This document shows, one piece after another, positions 3,576 through 44,000 of a stretch of DNA of 45,457 nucleotides; position 1 is the stretch's first letter; every line of letters starts with the position of its first letter. Origin of the DNA: Longimicrobium sp. (GTDB taxonomy: Bacteria > Gemmatimonadota > Gemmatimonadetes > Longimicrobiales > Longimicrobiaceae); contig DASVTZ010000185.1 of assembly GCA_036387335.1 (NCBI GenBank), forward strand, positions 1-45,457. The letters run 5' to 3'. The notes beneath the pieces were generated by a model, which was not told where the DNA came from, searched no databases, and saw only the letters and a list, made by a program, of their open reading frames with translations. A program made the position numbers and the translations under genes.

Positions 3576-3633
3576 GCCGGGGGATGAAATGAATCCCCCG
3601 GCTGGAACTACGCAAAGACGGCTGAAGCCGTCT
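3576..3633. repeat. Double inverted-repeat intergenic element
   Basis: Two perfect hairpins sit side by side: GCCGGGGGAT / ATCCCCCGGC (3576-3585 and 3593-3602, loop 7) and AGACGGC / GCCGTCT (3616-3622 and 3627-3633, loop TGAA). The spacer reads TGGAACTACGCAA. The layout is typical of short dispersed palindromic elements in intergenic DNA. No other copy is obvious in this window. Confidence 0.55.
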
Positions 3634-3909
3634 CGTGAGCGGCCGCTCGTTCCCGCGTCTGACCGTCACCCTGGTATCTCAGCTCAGAGACTCCTACAAA
3701 CACGTTGCTGCGCCTGCGCTTACAACATATCGTCCTCCGAGGGCCCATTTCGGATGTTGCACCTTGTAACGAAACCCTCAGTTGTAAGACATCCGAATTG
3801 TCACCACACCCCGCCTGGCACGGGGAACGCGTTCTCGTGGCGGAGGGTACCCCGTCCGGACTGCTGCCGCGGGACGCTCGCTCCGACCACGCTCATGCTG
3901 GGAAGCTCG

Positions 3910-4407
3910 ATGAAGATCCGAACTCTGACGTTCGCGCTGCTGGTGACCGGGCTCTCCGGGTGCATGCCGCCGCCTCCGCCCCCCCCTCCGCCGGCGCCCC
4001 TTCCGGCCCCGGCCGCCCCGCCCCCCAGCGCGGAGGAGGTGGAGCGCGCGGCGGAGGAGCAGGCCCGTCGCTCGTGGGAGCAGGCGACGACGCTGGGCCG
4101 GCAGGGCCGCTGGCGGGATGCGGAGGCGCTCCTGAGGACGGCGGTCCAGCAGCGCCCCTCGAATCCCACGTATCACCTGGCGCTCTCCAACGCCCTCATA
4201 CAGCAGTCGCGCGAGAGCGAGGCCGCCGACGCGCTCTGGGCCGGCATCCGCGCGCAGGAAGCGGTGCCGAGCCCCAACCACCGCGTCCTGGTGGTGGACT
4301 ACGAGCGCCTGGTGGAGCTCCTCACGCGCGTGGGCCGCGCCGCCGAGGCGCAGCAGGCCCGCGCCCGCCAGGCCGAGCACCGGCGGCTGCGGGATGCGGG
4401 GCAATGA
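3910..4407 (+). CDS. Proline-rich TPR-like lipoprotein
   Basis: The start is the ATG at 3910 (165 aa), where a lipoprotein signal begins: MKIRTLTFALLVTGLSGC with lipobox LSGC and Cys at 18. A run of about nine prolines and further Pro/Ala residues (19-45) would form an extended linker from the membrane. Helices of TPR character follow: SWEQATTLGRQGRWRDAEAL and NPTYHLALSNALIQQSRESE fit the 34-residue TPR spacing. It probably sits in the outer membrane or periplasmic face and works as a protein-interaction scaffold. Partners are not indicated, and the upstream 300 bases hold no gene. Long in-frame extensions upstream have no RBS and would bury the lipobox. Confidence 0.75.
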   Translation: MKIRTLTFALLVTGLSGCMPPPPPPPPPAPLPAPAAPPPSAEEVERAAEEQARRSWEQATTLGRQGRWRDAEALLRTAVQQRPSNPTYHLALSNALIQQSRESEAADALWAGIRAQEAVPSPNHRVLVVDYERLVELLTRVGRAAEAQQARARQAEHRRLRDAGQ

Positions 4408-4488: not shown

Positions 4489-4517
4489 TTGCATGCGAGG
4501 GCTGACCGCTGTATTTT
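4489..4517 (+). promoter_or_regulatory. Sigma-70-like promoter of NYN gene 1
   Basis: TTGCAT (4489-4494), a 17-base spacer and TATTTT (4512-4517) match a housekeeping promoter. Transcription would start at about 4524, at the foot of the leader hairpins. The NYN gene at 12231 has a matching arrangement (TTGACG, 17 bases, TAATTT). Confidence 0.55.
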
Positions 4518-4521
4518 ACAA

Positions 4522-4588
4522 GCATCACCTCGGCGGCCCTCGTGGACGCCGATCCATGCGGTGGCCCGGTGCTCGCGCACCGGGCCAC
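4522..4588 (+). ncRNA. Two-hairpin structured leader of NYN gene 1
   Basis: Hairpin A pairs GCAT (4522-4525) with ATGC (4556-4559) and TCGGCG (4530-4535) with CGCCGA (4547-4552), leaving a small internal loop and an 11-base apical loop. Hairpin B, one base further on, is a perfect 12-bp stem GTGGCCCGGTGC / GCACCGGGCCAC (4561-4572, 4577-4588) with a TCGC loop. No U-run follows, so B is not a canonical terminator. The ATG is 23 bases downstream and lacks a clear Shine-Dalgarno. The same promoter / hairpin A / hairpin B / NYN order recurs at 12376-12231. A leader processed or bound by its own encoded nuclease is a reasonable inference, not shown. Confidence 0.5.
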
Positions 4589-4611
4589 TTGCGTTGTGCC
4601 CCCTACGAATT

Positions 4612-5298
4612 ATGCCGTTCGAGCCCTCCCACCCGACTTCACCCGCGCCGCCCACGGCTGCCTCGGACGCTGGCGCCGCGCGTCCGGTGCGTGTCACCGT
4701 CTACGTGGACGGGTTCAACCTGTACCACGGGCTTAAGGAGCACAGCAAGGCGCGCGCGTACCGATGGCTCGACCTGCACGCGCTGTCGGAATCGCTCCTC
4801 CTTCCTGGCCACCGCCTCGAGAAGGTGCTGTACTTCACGTCTCTGCCGCCGTGGAGCCCGCAGAAGATCGCACGTCACCAGGTGTATATCGACGCGCTGA
4901 AGAGCGTGGGGGTGACGGTGGTCGAAGGGCGCTTCCAAAAGGATACCCGGACTTGCTTCGCGATCTGCCGGTTGCCGTTCGACGTGTACGTCGAGAAGCT
5001 GACCGACGTGAACATCGCTACACGCATGATCGAGGATGCCGTGCTGGATCGGACGGACTGGATCTACCTCGTGACGGGCGATGCCGATCAGGCACCTGCG
5101 ATCCGCACCCTTCGGACGCTGGTGCCACAGAAGGTCGTCCGGGTGATCTTCCCACCCCGCCGCCACTCGGCCGAGTTGCAGCAGGTGGCGGATGAACATC
5201 TCGGCCCTATAGGACACAGGAAGCTCAAGCCGTTTTTGCTGCCTGATGCGATCACCCTTGCCGACGGCCGCACGATCCATAACCCCGACGGCTGGTAG
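4612..5298 (+). CDS. NYN-domain (PIN-like) ribonuclease family protein 1
   Basis: This is a 228-aa protein. NYN domains are PIN-like metal-dependent nucleases, mostly acting on RNA. The strand-1 motif VTVYVDGFNLY carries Asp33; VEKLTDVNIATRMIEDA (about 127-143) supplies further acidic residues including D132; LVTGDADQAPAI (153-164) carries D157 and D159. Together these give the expected acidic cluster. The first 25 residues are Pro/Ala/Ser-rich and likely flexible. The start at 4612 is chosen because it follows the leader hairpins; upstream in-frame ATGs would run translation through both hairpins. The gene stands alone, about 110 bases before the Rrf2 gene. COG1432/LabA-like relatives have roles in RNA turnover or processing; the target here is unknown. 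Confidence 0.85.
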   Translation: MPFEPSHPTSPAPPTAASDAGAARPVRVTVYVDGFNLYHGLKEHSKARAYRWLDLHALSESLLLPGHRLEKVLYFTSLPPWSPQKIARHQVYIDALKSVGVTVVEGRFQKDTRTCFAICRLPFDVYVEKLTDVNIATRMIEDAVLDRTDWIYLVTGDADQAPAIRTLRTLVPQKVVRVIFPPRRHSAELQQVADEHLGPIGHRKLKPFLLPDAITLADGRTIHNPDGW

Positions 5299-11394: not shown

Positions 11395-12231
11395 CTACTC
11401 GGGCGGAAGCACCTTGGCCAGAGCGATCGCCGCTAGACGGGTTTCGCAGGCTGAGAGGAATCCCTTGCGGACTTCCCGCCGCTCAGCGGAAGTAAGGTCG
11501 CGGGCCAGGTGAGTGCGGCTCCGCGCCAGGAGACGACCGTCGAGCTGCTTCGGTAGCTGGTGGGTTGCGCGGATGCTTGCCACGAGCCCATCGAGCTCGG
11601 CTTCGGCGACCTCATTCGCCATCCCCTCCACGACTTCCGTGAGCGGATCTGTTGAGGGGCCGGGCTGCGGGCCTGGAAACATTGCCGCTGGCTGGCGTGG
11701 ATTGCAGGAGAGGAAGGGGGAAAGGTCCGACTCGCTCCACTCGGCCGTGGTGTCGGCTTCCTGGAGCAGGAACACGGACTGGCTTCCGCGGCTTGGCTTG
11801 ATCCCCAGCAGGTGCACCCGGACGCCAAGCTCCTGCGCCTGTTGCACGCCTACTCGCAGGTCTTCGTCGCCGGACAGCAGGACGGCTTCGGCCATTGCGC
11901 GGTTCTGGGCAAGGGTGATCATGTCGGTGACGATCAGCGAGTCCACGCCCTTCTGCTCGCCCATGCTGTTCACCAGGCCGAGACGCACCTTTACTCCAGG
12001 GAGGTAGGCGAGCGCAATGTGCTGGGCTGTCGGTCCGCTGGAAGTTCCATCGTACCAGTAGATCCGCAGCAACGGCAAACGGCAGACGCGCTCGGCGAAC
12101 TGAGTGAGAGCTTCGGCGACTTTCGCGTGGTCGATCACGACTTCGCCCCGAGCCAGCTTGCTGCCGGCAAGGAGGCTGCTGCCCTGGGCAAAGAGATATC
12201 CGGCATCGACGAACACCGCCACGCGATCCAT
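11395..12231 (-). CDS. NYN-domain (PIN-like) ribonuclease family protein 2
   Basis: The start at 12231 is set by GAGGGGGTG eight bases upstream; product 278 aa. The NYN core is clear: RVAVFVDAGYLF with D9, then RIYWYDGTSSGP, KGVDSLIVTDMITLA with D97 and D103, and LLSGDEDLRVGVQQA with D122 and D124. After about residue 160 a Pro-rich linker leads to a C-terminal helical region (about 195-278) that I do not recognise. It is not obviously related to NYN protein 1 beyond the fold. It is preceded by a two-hairpin leader like that of the gene at 4612. Probable RNA nuclease; target unknown. Confidence 0.85.
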   Translation of the reverse strand: MDRVAVFVDAGYLFAQGSSLLAGSKLARGEVVIDHAKVAEALTQFAERVCRLPLLRIYWYDGTSSGPTAQHIALAYLPGVKVRLGLVNSMGEQKGVDSLIVTDMITLAQNRAMAEAVLLSGDEDLRVGVQQAQELGVRVHLLGIKPSRGSQSVFLLQEADTTAEWSESDLSPFLSCNPRQPAAMFPGPQPGPSTDPLTEVVEGMANEVAEAELDGLVASIRATHQLPKQLDGRLLARSRTHLARDLTSAERREVRKGFLSACETRLAAIALAKVLPPE

Positions 12232-12281
12232 GCGCACCCCCTCAAAAATAGGCTTAAAGTGGACATATTGCACCACGAAGA

Positions 12282-12342
12282 AAGGGGTCCCCGAGGGGAC
12301 CCCTTAGTACGCTGCTCCATTTTAAAAGTAGTCGGAGCAACG
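12282..12342 (-). ncRNA. Two-hairpin structured leader of NYN gene 2
   Basis: Reading leftward, hairpin A pairs CGTTGCTCC (12342-12334) with GGAGCAGCG (12318-12310), 9 bp with one G-U, and its 15-base loop contains TTTTAAAA. Four bases on, hairpin B is a perfect 11-bp stem AAGGGGTCCCC / GGGGACCCCTT (12305-12295, 12292-12282) with a tight loop, followed by TCTTCG. The ATG is 50 bases downstream. Order and spacing relative to the promoter parallel 4522-4588, although the stem sequences differ, so the similarity is structural. Confidence 0.5.
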
Positions 12343-12347
12343 CTCTA

Positions 12348-12376
12348 AAATTACCGAAACGGTCTGGCAACGTCAA
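12348..12376 (-). promoter_or_regulatory. Sigma-70-like promoter of NYN gene 2
   Basis: TTGACG (12376-12371), a 17-base spacer and TAATTT (12353-12348), read leftward. Only five bases separate the -10 from hairpin A, so the transcript would begin almost inside the hairpin, as at NYN gene 1. Confidence 0.6.
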
Positions 12377-12440
12377 GTGTCGCGAACAGCTTACGCCGTT
12401 CAGAACTGAAGCAAGCCGTGAGACGTAGGGTGAGAATTGA

Positions 12441-12475
12441 AGGAGGCGCGGAGAGATGGTCTCTCCGCGCCTCCT
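12441..12475. terminator. Bidirectional 16-bp terminator hairpin
   Basis: AGGAGGCGCGGAGAGA / TCTCTCCGCGCCTCCT (12441-12456, 12460-12475), a perfect 16-bp stem with loop TGG, seven bases after the stop of the RG-rich gene on the minus strand. T-rich flanks exist on both sides. Its stem sequence resembles the repeat unit at 43791-43823. Confidence 0.7.
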
Positions 12476-12481
12476 TTGTGC

Positions 12482-43749: not shown

Positions 43750-43790
43750 CCGCGCCCACGTGCACGAACGGCGGCCCACACGTGGAGACA

Positions 43791-43823
43791 CGGAGGCGCG
43801 GAGAGAGCTTCTCCGCGCCTCCG
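43791..43823 (+). terminator. GGAGGCGCGGAGA hairpin terminator
   Basis: CGGAGGCGCGGAGA / TCTCCGCGCCTCCG (43791-43804, 43810-43823), 14 bp, followed by CTTCTTC. Its stem matches the hairpin at 12441-12475 and belongs to the dispersed-repeat vocabulary of this genome. Confidence 0.65.
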
Positions 43824-44000
43824 CTTCTTCACCACCATACACCTCCGTGACGAAAAAGGCGCGCCTCAGACCCCAACGGGACACCGCGCAAACCGATGTG
43901 GGAAGGACACTTGCGAGACGCTGGTGTGCGGAGCGGGTTCTGCCTATCTTCGCCTAGCGTGGTGGACAACGGGACCTCCTCAAACGGCGGAGGATGGACG

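Follow-up and report, generated by a model that had tools for sequence, protein, structure and literature searches.

NYN genes and adjoining RNAs in the window

The window, meaning the whole 45,457-nucleotide stretch of a Longimicrobium sp. contig that was analysed, contains two genes for NYN-domain proteins, each with a promoter-like sequence and a putative two-hairpin RNA ahead of it. The features and the evidence for each are as follows.

4489..4517, + strand: promoter-like TTGCAT-17-TATTTT of the small RNA (direct reading; matching position in relatives with sigma70 boxes)
4522..4599, + strand: small two-hairpin RNA, a predicted transcript with 5' GCAUCACC (layout as in homologues; fold z -3.96)
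4530..4552, + strand: hairpin A core (direct reading and fold test; covarying counterpart in homologues)
4561..4588, + strand: hairpin B, a perfect 12-bp stem, terminator-like, with a weak U-tract at 4589-4599 (reading, complementarity and fold test)
4612..5298, + strand: NYN-domain nuclease, PADLOC HEC-09, P0001 (Pfam NYN, HEC-09 profile, active-site residues, AlphaFold2 model and 2QIP)
11395..12231, - strand: second NYN-domain protein, of a different subfamily (domain and profile searches)
12278..12343, - strand: second two-hairpin RNA with terminator, of a different class (reading, fold test, layout in relatives)
12348..12376, - strand: promoter-like TTGACG-17-TAATTT of the second NYN-linked RNA (direct reading)

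At the first locus, direct reading gives a -35-like TTGCAT (4489-4494), a 17-nt spacer and a -10-like TATTTT (4512-4517), with ACAA between TATTTT and the GCAT at 4522. Hairpin A spans 4522-4559 with the core UCGGCG (4530-4535) / CGCCGA (4547-4552), the two 12-bp arms of hairpin B (4561-4572 and 4577-4588) are 100% complementary, and 23 nt without a Shine-Dalgarno sequence separate hairpin B from the ATG at 4612; on re-reading, the coordinates that the sequence-only reading had assigned to the promoter, both hairpins, the gap and the NYN ORF proved exact to the base. The fold is better than that of shuffled sequences (z=-3.96, with 1/200 shuffles as good). The promoter is weak by consensus, since a sigma70 scan of the window at the 9/12 threshold did not list TTGCAT/TATTTT, and its support comes from the matching position in homologues. 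Hairpin B was likewise missed by a strict terminator scan of the window, and is best described as terminator-like, with a weak U-tract (UUGCGUUGUG). The sequence-only reading placed the transcript start inside hairpin A; predicted homologue transcripts begin with an unpaired (G)CAUCAUCC immediately 5' of hairpin A, so the basal GCAU/AUGC helix of the window hairpin probably lies outside the structure.

Scored with filters off against the two covariance models described below, the window RNA reached 7.0 bits (R2) and 2.5 bits (R3), a match to neither; it lies beyond the reach of both, perhaps as a copy that has diverged or is decaying. Its position, layout and 5' motif point to a divergent relative of the HEC-09-associated RNA. 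Separately, the unpaired 5' motif AUCAUCC of class I RNAs (window 4522-4533: GCAUCACCUC) is similar to the 3' terminus of 16S rRNA (GGAUCACCUCC); this could be a hint of a target or chance. Strong palindromes with a common GGAGGCGCGGAGA core also lie at 12440-12476 and 43782-43832 of the window, possibly a dispersed repeat or a terminator of this genome.

The first NYN protein (P0001, 228 aa) matches Pfam NYN (E=1.6e-11) and, over residues 27-228, the PADLOC HEC-09 profile (E=9e-59), which also recognised the other tested RNA-linked HEC-09-type NYNs, each at E 1e-25 or better. Every active-site residue is intact: an alignment of 85 relatives shows no variation (85/85) at D33, N36, E128, D132, D157 and D159. 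The closest solved structure to its AlphaFold2 model (pLDDT 87) by fold search was 2QIP, and a sequence-profile search of solved structures gave no match. The protein sits on a long isolated branch of the NYN tree, with relatives in congeners at approximately 34-42% identity.

HEC-09 is PADLOC entry PDLC04163, an Hma-embedded candidate, the HECs being said to have been defined in a 2024 preprint by Payne et al. HECs, as Hma-embedded single-gene candidates, are described in PMC12988326. No Hma genes were seen beside the window NYN, and HmaB matches made up 2/143 neighbour ORFs of the NYN loci. Most neighbours were ordinary genes, with Hma, MADS, type I RM and BREX genes scattered between them, one locus (L232) being flanked by helicase-like and DUF1156-like methylase ORFs on by-eye reading, and neighbour scans revealed no conserved third gene. 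Neighbourhood support for a defence role is modest.

The second, sequence-divergent NYN gene with a like order of parts, also proposed from sequence, was found with TTGACG-17-TAATTT, a hairpin A and a hairpin B, the last reading AGGGGUCCCC-UC-GGGGACCCCU followed by UUCUUC. This RNA folds better than shuffles (z=-4.57), its layout is shared by relatives L247, L248 and L251, and the protein matches the HEC-09 profile at an E-value of only 0.0013, placing it in a different subfamily.

Occurrence and covariation of the RNA across relatives

Direct reading of the regions upstream of the congeners' NYN genes showed the same order of parts recurring. Wider occurrence was assessed across 80 named loci from at least 24 phyla, picked by NYN protein similarity alone, using a detector for a two-hairpin RNA (stem, stem, U-tract). 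The detector placed such an RNA at 76/80 loci, 48 in sense and 28 divergent, and at a score of at least 35 it recovered 68/80 NYN loci, the control figures being 9/191 (other gene starts) and 9/337 (random windows). Covariance models placed an RNA beside three of the four misses and 2.3 kb away at the fourth (L102). In total, 79/80 relatives carry the RNA within approximately 0.4 kb of the NYN gene, in the layout promoter, two-hairpin RNA, terminator, versus approximately 5-10% at other gene starts, leaving about 1/80 NYN genes with no RNA nearby. Sigma70 boxes (at least 9/12) were present, mostly 8-16 nt before hairpin A and on either strand, in 50/73 loci versus 9.8% in shuffles, which indicates a transcript start immediately 5' of hairpin A. 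At the sense loci the promoter is followed by the RNA and its terminator and then by the ORF, with often 10-40 nt left before the start codon. A held-out set of viral-contig loci gave an RNA at 43/55 (detector score of at least 30; control gene starts 20/191), and 24/25 R2 matches on viral contigs fell within an NYN leader. In the flank of one congener's NYN gene, Rfam also identified a cobalamin riboswitch (L031:1210-1337, minus strand).

The RNAs fall into classes that follow the NYN clades on the tree. Class I has the consensus (a)UCAUCC-[stem A]-GGCCCC-[stem B]-GGGUUUUU, class II ACCCC-[stem A]-CC-GACG-[stem B]-CGUUUCUUUU, and a third class, at congeneric 'group 2' NYNs, GUAC-RUARCUCCGGGGGGUUG...CAACCCCUCGUUAU. 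Across 48 class I sequences, compensatory changes occur in 17/18 pairs and in both hairpins, with 254 double-change cells versus 82.5+-8.8 in shuffled alignments and 91% of cells paired; slid structures collapse. The covariation check suggested with the original observation was thus passed by the family, through double-sided changes in those 17/18 pairs, and the leader is borne out as a real conserved RNA tied to the NYN gene, with the window copy itself unrecognised by the family models. Neither a pseudoknot nor a variable guide-like region was found in the NYN-linked RNAs. The earlier impression that no named RNA family matches agrees with Rfam 15, which at gathering score gave no match at the window RNA or at 40 related loci. 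A highly conserved separate RNA (CUCCGGGGGGUUG...CAACCCCUCGUUAU) was also observed ahead of another NYN subfamily in the genus (L018, L022, L024, L026, L029, L031 and L032).

Across 68 whole genomes the RNA models matched almost exclusively at NYN loci, a few orphan RNAs excepted. R1 gave 48 matches over 526 kb, 48/48 in NYN leaders. R2, run on 40 whole genomes of many phyla, gave 39 matches, of which 38 fell at the NYN locus and the remaining one at a second NYN with a frameshift. R3 gave a match in each of 28 genomes, at or near every NYN locus; its further matches were second NYN loci, tandem copies and a small number of orphans. Over 298 Gemmatimonadota genomes, the strong R2 matches (E up to approximately 1e-5) were all beside NYN genes save three orphans, one of which is in the window's own genome; weak ones (E>0.005, away from NYN, in coding sequence or beside tRNA) were rejected as noise. 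Some of the loci scanned had also gone into building the models, so the sensitivity of R1, R2 and R3 at those loci is circular, and E-values are rough owing to shortened calibration; the tests relied on are specificity, the counts from the protein-only selection and the held-out viral set.

Orientation, orphan RNAs and plasmid forms

The divergent arrangement of RNA and nuclease fills most of one large clade, where the divergence of class II was confirmed by covariance model, and the NYN tree implies five or more changes of orientation. Class II RNAs occur in sense in Chloroflexota (L095, L100 and L107) and on a Streptomyces plasmid (L243), and a class I RNA is divergent at L068. Since the RNA is conserved through these flips, it cannot act only in cis. 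One orphan class I RNA lies in the window's own genome (G000:C217:44691-44763, minus strand; locus L145/L220) with no adjacent NYN; it folds no better than shuffles (z -0.40), and its putative assignment draws on its covariance score and on homologous upstream sequence resembling that of L015. In a Deltaproteobacteria MAG (L219:2005-2715), a second NYN is split in two frames behind an intact RNA. The sequence-only reading had proposed a self-processing autoregulatory leader; as a general account this is not supported, since in 28/80 relatives the best-scoring RNA is encoded on the other strand and has a promoter and a terminator of its own, and orphan RNAs occur with no gene. Placement of the RNA on the nuclease mRNA, as a cis leader or riboswitch would have it, likewise failed as a general rule across the 80 loci, given the 28 divergent by detector score and the orphan copies. 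Opposite-strand RNAs with their own promoter and terminator, together with orphans, instead point to action as a separate transcript, i.e. a small RNA gene that in general cannot be a cis leader. The presence of RNA-only loci and near absence of nuclease-only loci is the asymmetry expected of antidote and toxin, and fits a required cofactor less well.

Relatives of the window NYN occur on 286 PLSDB plasmids, including cryptic plasmids of 3.5-4.3 kb from E. coli and Klebsiella. These small plasmids have longer RNAs, in which degenerate units are repeated ahead of the terminator (L237-L239, by eye). On a Klebsiella plasmid (L254) a 28-nt repeat pair has 53-nt spacing; Tandem Repeats Finder called no array in the Klebsiella RNA, the 'repeats' being a two-copy degenerate repeat. 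Two RNA copies stand side by side at three NYN loci (L231:2179-2325, L232:2414-2610 and L305:1303-1452), and most loci, including the window, have a single RNA unit. Other plasmid NYNs (L241, L245, L258 and L260) share a different RNA with a AUUAAGUU-like loop, and the NYN of a Rhizobium plasmid (L257:689-1896) has no RNA and follows an overlapping ORF, possibly a protein partner. On a Salmonella plasmid with a truncated NYN, the RNA region and the N-terminal part were lost together, and the case is therefore uninformative on the order of loss.

A putative RNA-controlled nuclease module

The conserved unit appears to be an independently transcribed, structured RNA of approximately 65-80 nt with an intrinsic terminator, accompanied by a predicted active HEC-09 NYN RNase. 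The computational analysis shows the RNA to be conserved and covarying, with its own promoter and terminator, and tied to HEC-09 in more than 20 phyla on either strand; it can exist with no nuclease, and the nuclease almost never occurs away from an RNA. From this near-constant pairing it would seem that the RNA restrains the enzyme in the way an antidote counters a poison. The best supported reading, to which we attach a moderate degree of confidence, is a type III-like toxin-antitoxin or abortive-infection module in which the NYN RNase is restrained in trans by its RNA. The RNA would bind and inhibit the enzyme, as ToxI does ToxN; at sense loci the terminator would keep the RNA in excess and leak a little nuclease mRNA; and if infection or plasmid loss stopped the RNA supply, the freed nuclease would cut RNA and arrest the cell. 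The early suggestion of an RNA partner as in type III systems thereby becomes the favoured one, the inhibition itself being somewhat probable. Against it stand the mostly single-unit RNAs, the lack of a pseudoknot, the non-ToxN fold, the modest neighbourhood signal and the failure of the window RNA against the models.

A rather unlikely alternative is an RNA-dependent effector, in which the nuclease needs the RNA, be it as activating cofactor, guide or sensor (for instance for phage or plasmid RNA), and is inert alone. The tight pairing with mostly single-unit RNAs, independent transcription on either strand, the conserved unpaired aUCAUCC and the tracking of NYN clades by RNA classes would all be consistent with it; however, no guide-like variable region is present, orphan RNAs kept with no nuclease are harder to explain, and tandem copies and repeats resemble antitoxin stoichiometry. 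For the window copy specifically, it is improbable that a real family is represented here by a decayed, non-functional remnant: the low model scores, weak U-tract and long NYN branch would fit such decay, but promoter spacing, the 5' GCAUCACC, both hairpins (z -3.96) and the nuclease active site are all kept. A cis attenuator or autoregulatory leader, which the NYN protein would cleave or bind to control terminator read-through, accords with the sense loci, where RNA and terminator intervene between promoter and start codon, and is quite improbable given a large clade whose RNA is outside the NYN mRNA, the orphans, and conservation despite orientation flips. A housekeeping role, in which hairpin B only terminates the upstream TPR protein gene (3589-4407) and hairpin A is incidental, is very remote: GC-rich hairpins are common before ORFs and the window copy has a weak promoter and U-tract, but a terminator-only explanation is ruled out by promoter spacing directly before hairpin A in relatives, covariation of both hairpins and a whole divergent clade, with the enrichment of 68/80 versus 9/191 also against it.

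The proposed type III-like module resembles ToxIN-type systems in its promoter, small structured RNA, intrinsic terminator and RNase ORF, in RNA classes specific to nuclease clades, and in its presence on plasmids with repeated RNA units in some copies. It differs in the NYN (PIN-like) nuclease, the usually single two-hairpin unit, the inferential status of inhibition, and the one clade with divergent RNA and nuclease, where the shared-operon rule fails. CptIN and TenpIN are further type III toxin-antitoxin systems, and to our knowledge the type III toxins known so far are all of ToxN fold; the present nuclease is NYN, and not ToxN/AbiQ, by Pfam, PADLOC and fold search. Published type III loci comprise a promoter, tandem RNA repeats, a terminator and a toxin ORF (PMC8860590). 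The arrangement of a promoter just before the RNA and a terminator before the ORF is found at sense loci, including the window, and breaks down in the divergent clade. The locus is not filed as a type III toxin-antitoxin system, because repeats are confined to some of the plasmid forms and the fold of the nuclease is different, although on present evidence it would work like one.

Several distinct small RNAs beside one nuclease-like family have reportedly also been described by the Breaker laboratory, as motifs associated with DUF3800 genes; that case is alike in its multiple RNAs and differs in protein family. A CRISPR-associated NYN ribonuclease, a Mn-dependent RNase with a proposed role in crRNA trimming in type III CRISPR loci and 2QIP as nearest structure (PMC11346440), shares the fold, catalytic aspartates and structural neighbour; in contrast, the NYN described here has a dedicated small RNA partner and no cas gene among the listed neighbour families. 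HEC-09 is catalogued as a protein-only candidate, whereas here the NYN has an RNA partner, of which the accessible sources, a scope that does not extend to the defining preprint, make no mention. A literature search with preprints and most subscription journals outside its range found nothing on NYN proteins with small or noncoding RNA or in type III toxin-antitoxin systems.

Whether HEC-09, instead of a single-gene system, is among the more widespread RNA-nuclease modules of bacteria, with a dedicated two-hairpin RNA that controls the NYN RNase in trans and comes in several classes co-diversifying with it, and so forms a new family (or type) of immunity by RNA antitoxin alongside ToxIN, is in our judgement evenly balanced. 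This candidate defence gene, which occurs in 24 or more phyla, in viral contigs and on plasmids of E. coli and Klebsiella, appears to have an RNA partner missed by protein-only searches, and HEC-09 cloned without its RNA could mislead tests through toxicity or inactivity. With the two covariance models the family can already be searched for, and the small E. coli plasmids open it to direct tests. Should the RNA prove to be an antitoxin, the small set of RNA-antitoxin systems would gain a further nuclease fold and an RNA of simple two-hairpin form.
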